Source: Sulfurospirillum tamanense
GTDB taxonomy: Bacteria > Campylobacterota > Campylobacteria > Campylobacterales > Campylobacteraceae
NCBI RefSeq assembly: GCF_016937535.1
Contig: NZ_JAFHKK010000025.1
Span: forward strand, 1-34,914
Reading direction: 5' to 3'
Length of the DNA stretch: 34,914 nucleotides
Under the pieces are notes generated by a model. It ran no database searches and had not been told where the DNA came from. It saw nothing but the letters and a program-made list of their open reading frames with translations. The position numbers and the translations under genes are program-made. Positions within the stretch are counted from its first letter, which is position 1. Each line of letters begins with the position of its first letter. This document shows, one piece after another, positions 3,460 to 25,981 of the stretch.

Positions 3460-4828
3460 GAAACTTCCTAAAATCGACCCTCACGCCGTGCGCTCTGTCT
3501 CTAAAAAACAGAGTTATTCTCCCCAAGATTTAGCATACATGAGAAGCCTCAGTGCAGCAGTCTTAGAGAAGTCCACCCTTAGTAGCCGTTTGATTTTGTG
3601 GACAATCGCCCTTTCGGTTGCTTGGCTTGTCTTATGGGCAAGTTACGCTTCTGTGGATGAAATAGCACGCGGAGAAGGCAGGGTTATTCCTTCAAGCCGC
3701 GTCCAAGTGGTGCAAAACCTCGAAGGAGGCATCGTCGAAGAACTTTACGTGCGCGAAGGGGACAACGTCCAACGCGGCCAACCCCTTCTTAAGATTCAAG
3801 ACATTCGTTTTGTGAGCTCTTTTCAAGAAAACCGCCTACGCATCCAAGAACTCAAAGCCAAAACCATCCGTTTGTACGCAGAAGCCAATGGTTTGGATTT
3901 TGACAGTGCCCCTAGAGACCAAACGCTAGACTCTTCTTTTTTGGACGAAGAAAAAAGCCTCTTTTTAAGCAATAAAATCCAACTTGAAAATGCCATCGAA
4001 ATCATCAACAGCCAACTGCGCCAACGCACTAGCGAGCTCACTGAAATACGTGCGCGCATTCGTCAGCTCACCCGTAGCCTAAGTCTTCTTAAAGAGGAAA
4101 TCACCCTCAAAGAACCCATGGTTAAACAAGGAGTTGTGCCTGCGGTGGAGCTATTGCAATTACGCCGCCAGCTCAATGATGCCGAAGGAAGCCTAGAGAG
4201 CGCCAAGCTTTCTGTGCCACGCATCGAATCCTCCATTGAAGAGACCCGCGGCAAAATCCAAGACACCGTTCTTGCCTTTCGCAACAAAGCCAAAGAGCAG
4301 TTCAACGAAGTTTCTGCCGAACTCATGCTCACTCAGCAATCCATCGGTGCCCTTACTGACCGCGTAGACAGAGCCATCGTGCGTGCACCTGTAAGTGGTA
4401 CGGTTAAGCAGCTCTTTACCAATACTGTGGGCGGGGTAGTAAAGCCGGGTATGGACATCATGGAAATCGTACCCATTGATGACGCACTGCTTGTGGAAGT
4501 GAAAGTCAAACCCTCCGACATCGCTTTCATCCAACTCGACCAACCTGCAACGGTCAAATTTACCGCCTATGATTTTTCCATCTACGGCGGCCTAACAGGT
4601 CACGTGAGCCAAATCGGCGCAGACACTATCACTGACGAAAAAGGCAATACCTACTATGTGGCGATGATTAAAACCGACTCTACACACCTAAGTTCTGCTA
4701 ATGAGATTTTACATATTAAAGTTGGAATGGTAGCCAGTGTTGACATTATCACAGGCAAAAAAACAGTCTTGGACTTTTTACTCAAACCCATCCTCAAAGC
4801 CAAACACAATGCCTTACGGGAGCGTTAA
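3452..4828 (+). CDS. lapC: Type I secretion membrane fusion protein, HlyD family (LapC-like)
   Basis: Periplasmic adaptor linking the ABC exporter to the TolC-like channel. I chose the GTG at 3452 because GGAGG lies five bases upstream (3442-3446); the ATG at 3440 would have AAGGA only one base away. The product has 458 residues, one membrane helix at about residues 46-66 (LILWTIALSVAWLVLWASYA), a lipoyl half-motif (VVQNLEGGIVEELYVREGDNVQRGQPLL), a long coiled coil (about 110-290), the second lipoyl half (IVRAPVSGTVKQL) and a C-terminal beta-barrel. The layout is that of the HlyD/LapC/PrtE family. It overlaps the end of lapB by 8 bases, and the next gene starts 2 bases after its stop, so these are co-translated or at least co-transcribed. 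Confidence 0.92.
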   Translation: MFEKLPKIDPHAVRSVSKKQSYSPQDLAYMRSLSAAVLEKSTLSSRLILWTIALSVAWLVLWASYASVDEIARGEGRVIPSSRVQVVQNLEGGIVEELYVREGDNVQRGQPLLKIQDIRFVSSFQENRLRIQELKAKTIRLYAEANGLDFDSAPRDQTLDSSFLDEEKSLFLSNKIQLENAIEIINSQLRQRTSELTEIRARIRQLTRSLSLLKEEITLKEPMVKQGVVPAVELLQLRRQLNDAEGSLESAKLSVPRIESSIEETRGKIQDTVLAFRNKAKEQFNEVSAELMLTQQSIGALTDRVDRAIVRAPVSGTVKQLFTNTVGGVVKPGMDIMEIVPIDDALLVEVKVKPSDIAFIQLDQPATVKFTAYDFSIYGGLTGHVSQIGADTITDEKGNTYYVAMIKTDSTHLSSANEILHIKVGMVASVDIITGKKTVLDFLLKPILKAKHNALRER

Positions 4829-20510: not shown

Positions 20511-20545
20511 AAAAAGTACAAAAAAAGTATCGAAAAATCCATTTT
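20511..20545 (+). promoter_or_regulatory. Composite repeat site A, likely operator for the AraC-type regulator
   Basis: AAAAAGTACAA, twelve unrelated bases, then AAAATCCATTTT. The same two half-elements with exactly the same 12-base gap recur at 21491-21525 before the porin gene, while the gap sequence differs almost entirely. Conserved blocks about two helical turns apart fit the two-helix-turn-helix binding mode of AraC-family proteins. Confidence 0.65.
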
Positions 20546-20557
20546 TTTTCTCATTTC

Positions 20558-20597
20558 TTTTGAGTATAATCACCTTAAACAATAATTATACTCAAAA
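20558..20597. repeat. Perfect 13-bp inverted repeat upstream of the AraC-type gene
   Basis: TTTTGAGTATAAT (20558-20570) and its exact reverse complement (20585-20597) are separated by 14 bases. Each arm contains a TATAAT or ATTATA hexamer, so it could be back-to-back -10 elements or a dimer operator. It sits 80 bases upstream of the regulator start. The remainder of the 273-base gap (20405-20677) is AT-rich without another clear feature. Confidence 0.8.
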
Positions 20598-20677
20598 TCT
20601 AGAGTAGGATATTAATATTATAAGCCACTTTTTCTCTTAATTGACGAAAAATACTTGAATCGTACCAAGGAGGATTC

Positions 20678-21492
20678 ATGACCATGCCAGCATACATCAA
20701 CCCTAGCTATATCCTTAGTAAAGAGATATTTCGTGTGCGTAGAATTGATTTTATCGACCCAGTTCCTTTGCACAAACATGGGTGTTATGAGCTTTTCTTT
20801 GCCCTCAAAGGCGAAGCGCGCTTTTGTATTGATAATGAATCTTACTTCATCAATCAGCCTTGCCTTTTTTTGGTTTACCCCAACCGCGTTCACGGATGGG
20901 GTAAACCATCAAAGACTTACAAGGTTATGTATTAAAGTTTGACGCGACTGCTTTTACTGACCCTTCTTTTCTAAATCGTATCTCAGCCTTTCAAAGTGAC
21001 CTTGTTTTTTTAGAAGACCGCGAAAAAATCATGATGATCCACAATACCTTTAAAGCCCTAGAGGATGAGTATCACACATCTCTTTCCTTTAAAGAACACA
21101 CCATTAACAGCCTTTTACAAATTTTGCTCGTCTACATTCAACGTTGTGTTCCTTCGGCACCAGCCTCGCAAGCTAGCCAAACCCTCATTGCAAAACTCAA
21201 CGAAGCCATTGCACACAACCACTATGCCCTCGCCAAACCCACCTTTTACGCCAAAAAACTCAACACAAGTGTTCGTCTTCTCAATAAAGCAACCAGTGAA
21301 GTGGCCGACCAAAGTCTGGGACAATACATTCGTAACCAAACCCTTCAAGAAGCTAAGCGCCTCCTCTCTTTTGAAACCATGACATGTAATGAAGTTGCTT
21401 ATTGCTTAGGATTCTCAGACCCTGCATATTTTAGTCGCTTCTTCAAACGAGAAGTTGGCGTCGCACCAAAAATTTTTCGCAATGGGTCTTAA
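20678..21492 (+). pseudogene. AraC-family transcriptional regulator, broken by a frameshift
   Basis: The first part (20678-20935) encodes a cupin-like AraC sensor domain (IDPVPLHKHGCYELFFALKGEARF, YPNRVHGWGK) and then runs into a stop. The next frame is open from about 20908 and reads IKDLQGYVLKFDATAFTDPSFLNRI straight into the remainder, ending with the AraC double helix-turn-helix (KLNTSVRLLNKATSEV, then MTCNEVAYCLGFSDPAYFSRFFKREVGVAPKIFR). Adding one base in CC before ATC at about 20905-20908 would restore one continuous protein of about 271 residues, so a single-base deletion (real or a sequencing error) is the simplest cause. An internal ATG at 21031 could give only the DNA-binding half. 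GGAGG precedes the start. It lies directly upstream of the porin it probably controlled. Confidence 0.85.
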
Positions 21493-21525
21493 AAAGTACA
21501 AGTTTTTGTATTTAAAATCCATTTT
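21491..21525 (+). promoter_or_regulatory. Composite repeat site B before the porin gene
   Basis: AAAAAGTACAA (21491-21501) and AAAATCCATTTT (21514-21525), with a 12-base gap exactly as in the site at 20511. It begins at the stop codon of the broken AraC-type gene and lies about 60 bases before the porin ATG, in a suitable place for an activator site. Confidence 0.65.
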
Positions 21526-21584
21526 AAAAAAATTAACTAACTGATAAAATTAATCTTGAAATTATATTTTCAGGAGGAAGTTTT

Positions 21585-22826
21585 ATGAAAAAGTCTACTG
21601 TCGTACTTCTTAGTACTGTTTTGTGCGCATCACTTGCCAGCGCTAAAGTTCAACATGTTTTCGAACCCGCAAAAGACACATCCGAATTTACCGATGTAGA
21701 GTGGAACTGGAAGGCGGCCCTTTCGTTTTACTATCAAGGGCTAACACAGGACTACACACCTGTAACAGGCACCGAGGAAGAGATTGGAAATGGGCTAATT
21801 CTCCCTAATGCCAATCTTGATATTTACGCTAAAATCATGAGTGGTTTTAATGTCAAATTGCAAACCATGCTTTCTTCTAGCCATCACCCTGAAGCTTATG
21901 TCAAAGGTGGTTACGCGACCATTGACAACCTTGATTTTATTGCTCCAAGGTTTCTTGAGGGTTTAATGGCCAACACTACCATTAAAATCGGGGTTAATGA
22001 CATCAACTTTGGTGATGACCATTACCGCCGTACTGATAATGCTGATGTTATGAGAAACCCTTTTGTGGGCAACTTGGCTGTTGAGTCTTACATGCAAGCC
22101 TTTCATGTAGAAGTATTGCACCGTTTGCCAACACTCAACGCGTTTGTTGTGGGCGGTCTTACTAATGGCAAAGCACAGCCCAATAATGTTGTAAAATCAA
22201 ATGACACCGACGATGCCAAAAATGCCTCTTATGCTCTTTATGGCAAAGTAGGTTTTGACAAGCAGCTCAACGATGCCTTGCGTGTGAGGGTTACTGAGTC
22301 TGTTTACTGGCAAGAAAAAACAGCTCGTGGAGATTTATATTCGGGAGATAAAAGCGGGGATGTTTTTGCCAATATCTTTGGGAAAGCTGCCAAGGATACT
22401 TCACAACAAACATGGAATGCAGTGTCAGGCTATGCTGATATTTTTGCCTCCAAAACAAACTTTTTTGTCAAATACAACGATACAGAATTTTACGGTCTTT
22501 ATGAAATTGTTGATGGCAAAAAAGCCGATGGCAAAAGCATAGATATGAACCATTATGCGTTTGATATTGTACAGCGCTTTGCTAACGACCGGTTTTATTT
22601 AGCAGCTCGTTACGAAAATGCTGTAGTTAAGCATGATGATGCAGTTCGCGACTATGGTGATGCAGAACTTACCCAATATCAACTCACCGCTGGTTGGTTC
22701 TTGTCTAAAAATGCCGTCGCTAAAGCTGAATACATCAAACACGAGCGTAAAAACTTTTCTGATTACGGCGGCAACGGGAAGGCAGAGTTTGATGGCTTTA
22801 TGATTTCAGCAGCCCTTAATTTTTAA
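21585..22826 (+). CDS. Putative outer-membrane porin / beta-barrel protein
   Basis: A 413-residue secreted protein with a classical signal peptide (MKKSTVVLLSTVLCASLASA, cut before KV). The mature part alternates polar and aromatic residues in strand-like segments (NLDIYAKIMSGFNVKLQTML, DRFYLAARYENAV, YQLTAGWFLSKNAVAKAEYIKHERK) and ends in GFMISAALNF, a terminal Phe typical of outer-membrane barrels. I cannot name the substrate. GGAGGAAG gives a strong ribosome binding site. It is followed 17 bases later by a YceI-family gene in the same unit, and is preceded by the broken AraC-type regulator and the shared composite site, so its expression was probably controlled by that regulator. Confidence 0.8.
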   Translation: MKKSTVVLLSTVLCASLASAKVQHVFEPAKDTSEFTDVEWNWKAALSFYYQGLTQDYTPVTGTEEEIGNGLILPNANLDIYAKIMSGFNVKLQTMLSSSHHPEAYVKGGYATIDNLDFIAPRFLEGLMANTTIKIGVNDINFGDDHYRRTDNADVMRNPFVGNLAVESYMQAFHVEVLHRLPTLNAFVVGGLTNGKAQPNNVVKSNDTDDAKNASYALYGKVGFDKQLNDALRVRVTESVYWQEKTARGDLYSGDKSGDVFANIFGKAAKDTSQQTWNAVSGYADIFASKTNFFVKYNDTEFYGLYEIVDGKKADGKSIDMNHYAFDIVQRFANDRFYLAARYENAVVKHDDAVRDYGDAELTQYQLTAGWFLSKNAVAKAEYIKHERKNFSDYGGNGKAEFDGFMISAALNF

Positions 22827-24243: not shown

Positions 24244-25440
24244 TTATTTCTCAAACAAAATCTTCCCGTACCGCCCTGCCCACCAGCCAAATACCCCTAA
24301 CCACGCTAGAGCACTTAGGCCAATAAGGCTCATGTAATGGCTAGGCACCAAGTCCGCGCCCACGCGCAACAGCGTCATGGTTTGCACTAGCCCAAACAGC
24401 GCCACCGCGTAGCCATCGGCCACGGGCGTGCGCCCTGAGTGGCCCAACAACACCCGCGTGCCAAAGCCAATAAGCACGGTTGTAAAATACCCAAGTGCTA
24501 AGGCATGCAAGGGTGCATGGCCAAAATGCCACCCCAAATCAAACCACTGGGAAAGCCCGTGGAGTGTGAAAAGCAAAAAGCCCACAGGTGCCCACCAGAT
24601 GGAGAGAAACAGCACCCATAAAATAGGCGGAGACTGGCGAAAGGGGAGTTTCCACCGCACCAGTTCGAGGGTAATAACTCCAAACAAAAGCCCATCGGCA
24701 AGCAAGGCATTAAACCCCAACGACTCTAGCGCCACTTTAAGCAAAAGCCCGCCAAATACCACAGGCAAAAAGTACGTGGACTTGCGCACTTCGTACCCTT
24801 GAACGCGGTTAGCCGCAAAGAAAGGAATCATCTTTTGTGAGACCACGATGACCACCAAAAAGAGGTACATGTAAAAGCTCATGGTGAGCGCTACATGTAA
24901 GGTCGGTGCAACAAAAGAGGCAAAAAACAGCACTTGGGCGAGTGCGCCAAACGCAAAGGCAACTAGCATCCACGAAGTGTCTTGTTTATTAGGCACGCTA
25001 CTTTGACGCTGAAAATCCCACAGCACCCACACCAACTTTCCATACCCCACAAGCACAAGCACCATGGCAAGCAACGTCCATGCTTCAGAAACAAAACTAA
25101 ACACCGCCAACCCCACGCCGCCAAGGTTCAAGGCCAATGCGGGCCACAAATAAGCGGACTTTGGCGCACTGGGACGCGCAAGGTAACGGGGAAAGGTAGT
25201 GAGCAAAAAGCCCACAAAAAACTGCGTAAACACCACAAATGCCATGGCATAGCCGTGGTAAAATTCGGGCCTTACATGTAAGGCAATCCACCCGCCATAC
25301 TGCATCCCAAGCAAAGCCACAAACACCACCCCTTGCACAATACCCGCAAAGAAAAACAACCGATGGGGCAAGGCTAAGAGGTTTTGCCACGGCGACGTTT
25401 TGGGGCTTGGCGGGGGCGTGAGGCTACTGACAAAAACCAC
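24244..25440 (-). CDS. nnrS: NnrS family membrane protein
   Basis: A roughly 398-residue integral membrane protein with about twelve hydrophobic helices and NnrS-typical phrases: HRLFFFAGIVQGVV, FYHGYAMAFVVFTQFFVGFLLTTFPRYL, FVVIVVSQKMIPFFAANRV-like and HFGHAPLHALALGYFTTVLIGFGTRVLLGHSGR with conserved His residues. NnrS is a haem/copper-type membrane protein linked to resistance to nitric-oxide-derived stress. The open frame extends to 25578, but that part lies inside tpx; I chose the GTG at 25440, which has AAGGAG nine bases upstream and overlaps the tpx stop by 17 bases. It is therefore translationally linked to tpx and falls under the FNR-type box at 26036. Confidence 0.87.
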   Translation of the reverse strand: MVFVSSLTPPPSPKTSPWQNLLALPHRLFFFAGIVQGVVFVALLGMQYGGWIALHVRPEFYHGYAMAFVVFTQFFVGFLLTTFPRYLARPSAPKSAYLWPALALNLGGVGLAVFSFVSEAWTLLAMVLVLVGYGKLVWVLWDFQRQSSVPNKQDTSWMLVAFAFGALAQVLFFASFVAPTLHVALTMSFYMYLFLVVIVVSQKMIPFFAANRVQGYEVRKSTYFLPVVFGGLLLKVALESLGFNALLADGLLFGVITLELVRWKLPFRQSPPILWVLFLSIWWAPVGFLLFTLHGLSQWFDLGWHFGHAPLHALALGYFTTVLIGFGTRVLLGHSGRTPVADGYAVALFGLVQTMTLLRVGADLVPSHYMSLIGLSALAWLGVFGWWAGRYGKILFEK

Positions 25441-25981
25441 AGCAACTCGCTCCTTGGTTTGCCGCCGCGATGGCTTTTTGGAGCGCCTCCTCATAGTCTG
25501 GTTCATCCGTAATCTCTGGAACGATGTGCTTGTACACAATGCGACCATCTTTACTGACGATGAAAATAGCCCGCGCACACAACCCTTCTAGCGGCCCGTT
25601 TTCAATGAGCACACCGTACGCTTTGGCAAAGGCTTTGGCTTTAAAATCGCTCACAAAGGTGAGGTTTTCCACCTCGGAGCGGTTGCAAAAGGAAGCCGCC
25701 GCAAAGGGTAAGTCCATAGACACAAAGATGCCCTCAATGCCTTCTTGCTGGGCCAAACGCCTACTAAATTCATGGGCTTCTTTGGCGCACGTGGGCGTGT
25801 CAAAGGAAGGGGCGGTGAGAATGTGGATGGTGTTGCCCTCCATCCCAACGGTTTTTGGCTCCAAATGCGGGTCAAGAAGGGTCACAATGGGTGCGGGATT
25901 GCCTAGTTCTTGAAATGCGCGCCCAAGGCGCAACCGCTCCCCTTTAAATGCCGTGTAATCGGCTTTGTCTTGAAATACCAT
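25424..25981 (-). CDS. tpx: Thiol peroxidase (Tpx type) with cysteine-rich C-terminal tail
   Basis: A 185-residue atypical 2-Cys peroxiredoxin that reduces peroxides using thioredoxin. Peroxidatic Cys65 lies in PSFDTPTCAKEAHEF and the resolving Cys99 in LPFAAASFCNRSEV; YGVLIENGPLEGLCARAIFIV and EITDEPDYEEAL are Tpx signatures. The ATG at 25981 is preceded by AAGGAG; an upstream in-frame ATG at 26008 lacks a site. Normal Tpx has about 165-170 residues and ends soon after EPDYEAAL; this one adds a tail, NQGASCCGFCQ, with three extra cysteines. Its stop overlaps the nnrS start, so the two form an operon, probably for peroxide and nitric-oxide stress under oxygen limitation. Confidence 0.92.
   Translation of the reverse strand: MVFQDKADYTAFKGERLRLGRAFQELGNPAPIVTLLDPHLEPKTVGMEGNTIHILTAPSFDTPTCAKEAHEFSRRLAQQEGIEGIFVSMDLPFAAASFCNRSEVENLTFVSDFKAKAFAKAYGVLIENGPLEGLCARAIFIVSKDGRIVYKHIVPEITDEPDYEEALQKAIAAANQGASCCGFCQ

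Follow-up and report, generated by a model that had tools for sequence, protein, structure and literature searches.

Matching two-part candidate operators 5' of an AraC-family regulator gene and a porin-yceI pair in Sulfurospirillum tamanense

At araI1-araI2 of the E. coli promoter PBAD, the two half-sites of AraC are in direct orientation, with a spacing of about 21 bp. The I2 half-site is placed at -35 to -51 and overlaps the -35 region in the passage cited (PMC11434276). XylS is described as recognizing two 15-bp direct repeats (PMC5481539), and the operator of MtlR is given as AGTGC-N5-AGTAT-N7-AGTGC-N5-AGGAT, with a 22-bp period (PMC4514859). From the same phylum as the locus described here, PsrR of Wolinella succinogenes is reported as an AraC-family regulator that controls polysulfide reductase (PMC6682613). 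A full-text literature search, with subscription papers mostly outside its scope, found no paper on the set of AraC, porin and YceI considered here.

The window, which is the whole stretch of 34,914 nucleotides that was analysed, carries the pattern AAAAAGTACAA-N12-AAAATCCATTTT twice on its + strand with 0 mismatches, once 5' of an araC gene and once 5' of a porin gene that is followed by a yceI-like gene (Table 1). In the sequence-only reading of this DNA the blocks and their spacing were said to be identical at the two places, which is exactly the case, and the bases between the blocks to be almost wholly different; indeed 12/12 spacer positions differ. The araC-side operator ends 132 bp 5' of the araC start codon, and the start of the porin-side operator is within the araC stop codon (21490-21492). 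Judged from the sequence, it is very probable that the two sites are operators of the AraC-family protein encoded between them, and that this protein activates both its own gene and porin-yceI.

Table 1. Positions in the window of the candidate operators, the putative -10 boxes and the genes of the araC-porin-yceI cluster.
Feature	Position	Strand	Remarks
Operator at araC promoter	20511..20545	+	exact pattern match; conserved before araC in relatives
Parts of araC-promoter operator	upstream half 20511-20521, spacer 20522-20533, downstream half 20534-20545	+	
Direct repeat in araC-promoter operator	starts 20513 and 20534	+	21-bp period
Putative -10 box TATAAT of araC	20565..20570	+	19 bp after operator; inferred promoter
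araC N-terminal part (cupin / AraC-like ligand-binding domain)	20678..20935	+	Pfam Cupin_2, AraC_binding; stop at 20933-20935
araC C-terminal part (AraC-type double helix-turn-helix), other frame	20905..21492	+	Pfam HTH_18; open frame 195 aa
Operator at porin promoter	21491..21525	+	exact pattern match; conserved before porin in relatives
Parts of porin-promoter operator	upstream half 21491-21501, spacer 21502-21513, downstream half 21514-21525	+	
Direct repeat in porin-promoter operator	starts 21493 and 21514	+	
Putative -10 box TAAAAT of porin	21545..21550	+	19 bp after operator; TATAAT, TACAAT or TAAAAT at the same place in 15 relatives
Porin, 413 aa, predicted outer-membrane beta-barrel of OprP/OprO-like fold	21585..22826	+	structure model and fold search
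yceI-like gene, 162 aa	22844..23332	+	Pfam YceI 1.5e-7; order porin-yceI kept in relatives

The araC gene of this genome is not one open frame; it lies in two frames, with the switch within the overlap 20905-20935. The orthologues in relatives are each a single unbroken frame. The C-terminal part carries the double helix-turn-helix of the AraC/XylS family (HTH_18, 8e-19, 21031-21492; HTH_AraC, 2.9e-7), and the closest solved chains to the AraC protein include the AraC DBD, 2k9s. In the cut frame the N-terminal part matches a cupin-like domain (AraC_binding, 9.1e-5; Cupin_2, 5.8e-6, just under the Cupin_2 cut-off), and in an intact relative (L066) the AraC_binding match is at 7e-10. The frameshift may be genuine or may come from the assembly and, because the operators are still intact, the break would be either recent or an error of the assembly. 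A programmed frameshift was considered and rejected, as a classical slippery heptamer was not seen by eye. The term "repaired" regulator, used when binding was first proposed, is apt insofar as the araC in the window is frameshifted, which means that the circuit may be inactive in this genome, with its sites intact. The araC leader contains TTGACGAAAAATA at 20641-20653, and similar forms are present in the leaders of relatives. As a rare motif this was rejected, there being one exact copy in its own genome, 23 copies with one mismatch and 13 control matches.

The porin of the window has 0 matches in Pfam and NCBIfam, and the porin profile has 0 sequence matches in the PDB; Pfam Porin_O_P gives weak matches in 2/15 members of the porin family, the best at 0.0013. 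The alignment of this family excludes L216 (G453), which has two stops in its frame, and L178 (G348), L185 (G171) and L215 (G295) were left out. A structure model of middling confidence (pLDDT 64, pTM 0.68) is a beta-barrel, and the fold search with this model has OprP (2o4v, E 5e-13) as its best PDB match, with OprO also at the top; the model thus predicts an outer-membrane beta-barrel of OprP/OprO-like fold. The yceI-like gene starts 17 bp downstream of the porin gene, and the two probably form a single operon. Near the cluster, on the - strand, is a gene for an NnrS family protein (24244-25578). Between positions 66 and 15835 the window encodes an outer-membrane efflux protein, an ABC exporter, an HlyD protein, a LuxR-type regulator, a 2557-aa cadherin/Ig-repeat adhesin, a transglutaminase-like protease (Peptidase_C93) and a LapD-like GGDEF/EAL protein, a gene set that we take to be Lap-type.

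An AraC orthologue with 45-58 % identity is present in the Sulfurospirillum family (f20), genus g31 (taken to be Sulfurospirillum), where the gene order araC-porin-yceI is kept in the relatives, the exception being G171, which has no yceI after a shortened porin match; for some relatives the fetched piece ends before the position of yceI. In the case of G171 (L185, about 3737-4786) the porin match stops at residue 321 of 413 and both operators are intact, with neither yceI nor AraC2 found after the porin in the fetched region. The 23 block positions of the window were scanned over 20 loci from 14 genomes, 6 of which, to judge by equal matches and contig sizes, are present twice (L037=L066, L038=L067, L043=L068, L046=L070, L047=L069, L049=L071; counts are per genome unless stated), and 19 of these loci, from 13 genomes, hold the porin. 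In 19/19 porin-holding loci the best or tied-best match is directly 5' of the porin (21-22 of 23 positions). A second match is found 5' of araC, with 18-21 of 23 positions in the scanned loci; the exception is G408, whose spacing is less by 1 bp. The araC site of L052, the locus without porin, scores 21 of 23. That of G423 has a degraded downstream half, and in G171 and G387 there is an extra, weaker copy 75 bp upstream of the araC site. In 9 genomes the araC frame runs through the porin-side operator, ending KYNF, and in five, that of the window among them, it stops short of the operator. That the operator DNA is conserved in both cases suggests that selection has acted on the DNA and not on the protein.

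The half-sites are AAAgTaCAaTTT upstream and AAAATCCATTTT downstream. Across 28 distinct site sequences they score as a direct repeat at an offset of 21 bp (+8.1), the remaining offsets between 17 and 27 all being negative, and direct half-sites about two helical turns apart are the arrangement of an AraC-type class II operator. At 16/16 porin promoters the best -10 hexamer follows the downstream half at a distance of exactly 19 bp. At the araC promoters the -10 is at 19-20 bp in 13/14, a count that leaves out G408, in which the spacing differs: the window, G423, G372 and G443 have 19 bp, a tied result in the last two and with a 4/6 match in G443, nine genomes have 20 bp, and there is no clear -10 at 19-20 bp in the araC promoter of G453. 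If the -10 hexamer is taken as -12 to -7, the downstream half is at about -43 to -32 on this count, and it would therefore lie over the -35 region, as at class II promoters, at 16/16 porin promoters and at both promoters of the window. As far as sequence can tell, the layout is that of a class II activator of the AraC/XylS family.

The AraC protein, with its cupin sensor domain and double helix-turn-helix, would bind as two subunits to the tandem direct repeat, contacting both half-sites, which at a distance of two helical turns would face the same side of the helix. The downstream half would replace the -35 element and, because it takes the place of -35, the bound regulator may recruit RNA polymerase by class II activation. 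One regulator would in this way drive araC and the porin-yceI operon together, in answer to a ligand. Binding, activation as opposed to repression, autoregulation and the ligand response of the AraC protein are what we infer from these features. The same position of the downstream half, overlapping the -35 region at both promoters, could also allow the bound protein to block RNA polymerase, such that it represses from both sites, or represses araC while activating the porin; E. coli AraC, which is known to regulate itself negatively, provides a precedent. This is unlikely, however, as both promoters share one geometry, which is that of class II activators, and no clear -35 consensus was seen, by eye, in place of the half-site.

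Activation by the neighbouring AraC protein is also consistent with the co-occurrence of the site and its regulator. In a survey of 44 genomes of f20, in which AraC presence was taken as E <= 1e-20, all 14/14 genomes with an AraC orthologue have the site at up to 1 mismatch, a presence that is partly by construction where the refined pattern was drawn from these loci, unlike the absence elsewhere; the site is found in 0/30 of the genomes without an orthologue (Fisher p 9e-12, with kinship ignored, the g31 genomes being close kin and not independent). At 2 mismatches, one stray match each is seen in G418, G403 and G398, which are among these 30, and G280 and G290, g31 genomes without AraC, have no match even at 3 mismatches. 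Every match of the refined pattern at 0-2 mismatches in 21 chosen genomes falls in the araC-porin gene cluster. In G001, the one genus mate of the window's genome that was covered, neither a close AraC match nor a site was found. Outside f20, in family f9, genus g80 (G470 and G485), the gene order is porin-yceI-araC; the porin site scores 22/23 in G485 and 19/23 in G470, where the upstream half is poor, and no site was found before araC in these two genomes. Taken by porin locus, the site is present in 16/16 with an adjoining AraC gene (f20 relatives, G470/G485 and the window) and before the porin in 0/3 where no such AraC was found (G498, G306 and G295), the absence of AraC being less sure in G306, whose contig ends 200 bp upstream of the porin. 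It had been proposed that an operator is common to araC and porin-yceI. This is borne out by the same sites at both promoters across the AraC-bearing f20 genomes, and is further supported by the porin site in two genomes of another family and by the absence of sites where AraC was not found.

Relatives carry AraC2 paralogues downstream, and some have two or three AraC copies. AraC1, AraC2 and the g80 AraC form a single clade in the tree (100/99), and within it the proteins of G470 and G485 (g80) are placed beside AraC2. A third site is present 5' of doxX in 4/4 genomes where doxX was found, scoring 22, 21, 19 and 19 of 23. This site, the 21-bp direct repeat and the fixed 19-bp distance to the -10 go beyond what the sequence-only reading contained. 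The third operator copy in L178 (6180-6213) and L179 (5709-5742), from Sulfurospirillum-type genomes, is 5' of a doxX-like gene and of another araC, and a formate dehydrogenase gamma-like gene is present downstream of this doxX-araC2 region, on the opposite strand. The AraC2 genes, the third site before doxX-araC2 and the grouping of the sole AraC of G470/G485, near the site, with AraC2 rather than AraC1 might indicate that another regulator binds the sites, either the AraC2 paralogue of relatives or an unrelated factor, and that the neighbouring AraC is a bystander. Against this, both sites are kept in the window's genome, where no second AraC of the AraC1/AraC2 group was found, and in G171, which has one AraC match at E <= 1e-20; the sites also track AraC across f20 and are missing from the three porin loci without it, and a different regulator is quite improbable.

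The blocks are rich in A/T and lie directly 5' of -10 boxes, as might be expected if the match were a general AT-rich promoter element (an A-tract or UP-like element plus -10) and not a specific operator. In the whole genome (2,456,696 bases in 63 contigs), however, the sole matches at up to 3 mismatches are these two sites, both in the araC-porin cluster, and the reversed control pattern has 0 matches in the same scan. A search of the genome for unrelated copies had been set beforehand as the test by which the operator reading might fail, and it is this search that returned the two sites alone; within the window likewise no third match was found at up to 3 mismatches (0/100 in the shuffle control). 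In addition, G, C and CC are among the most strongly conserved positions of the site, and three genomes in which AraC was not found lack the element 5' of the same porin. A general promoter element is therefore largely refuted by rarity, and has very little probability left. In the scan of the window's own family with the window pattern, 0 mismatches are seen nowhere outside its own genome (153 genomes), and 47/153 genomes have a match at up to 3 mismatches, four others at 2 and the remainder at 3; matches of the reversed control are also present in many genomes. Chance similarity or a recent duplication has a negligible probability and is ruled out by the conservation of each site in relatives. 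While the plain identity of the two upstream regions, 23/35, is not significant and is common in shuffled AT-rich sequence (228/1000 dinucleotide shuffles), two exact runs (11 and 12) at one spacing, with the shorter run at least 11, occur in 0/2000 shuffles, and the wholly different spacers and the separate retention of each site agree with the original preference for a conserved operator over a duplication.

The two sites are thus best read as operators through which the AraC-family protein would activate araC and porin-yceI. The mechanism itself is classical, and the araC-porin-yceI circuit is a new, well-supported instance of it. It provides a concrete candidate operator and regulon for one AraC clade of the Campylobacterota, and could help to trace the inducing signal of an OprP-like porin and a YceI protein in Sulfurospirillum. 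More tentatively, and with the odds slightly against it, this may be a local Campylobacterota regulon not described before, in which a single AraC clade has an operator code of its own, AAAgTaCAaTTT-N9-AAAATCCATTTT, and controls a porin-yceI module, joined in some Sulfurospirillum by doxX and a second araC, for outer-membrane uptake or for a quinone/redox response beside formate dehydrogenase genes.

Among the described systems, the likeness to PsrR is one of family and phylum, and the target of PsrR is polysulfide reductase (PMC6682613). As at PmtlE of Pseudomonas fluorescens, in the account cited for MtlR, there are tandem, unlike half-sites just upstream of -35 and an A-tract (PMC4514859); the period here is 21 bp as against 22 bp, the consensus is another, and MtlR targets mannitol genes, not porin-yceI. 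The tandem direct-repeat half-sites upstream of the promoter, and their predicted recognition by two helix-turn-helix motifs, resemble those described for XylS at Pm of the Pseudomonas TOL plasmid (PMC5481539). The sites here show neither the A box TGCA nor the B box GGTA of that system, whose ligand class and targets also differ. In the case of E. coli AraC at araI1-araI2 of PBAD, the targets and the site sequence are other than those here, and here the regulator and its target genes share one orientation and the porin operator lies where araC ends, unlike the E. coli arrangement; shared with it are a double helix-turn-helix protein, direct half-sites spaced by about 21 bp and, in the passage cited, a proximal half-site over -35 (PMC11434276).
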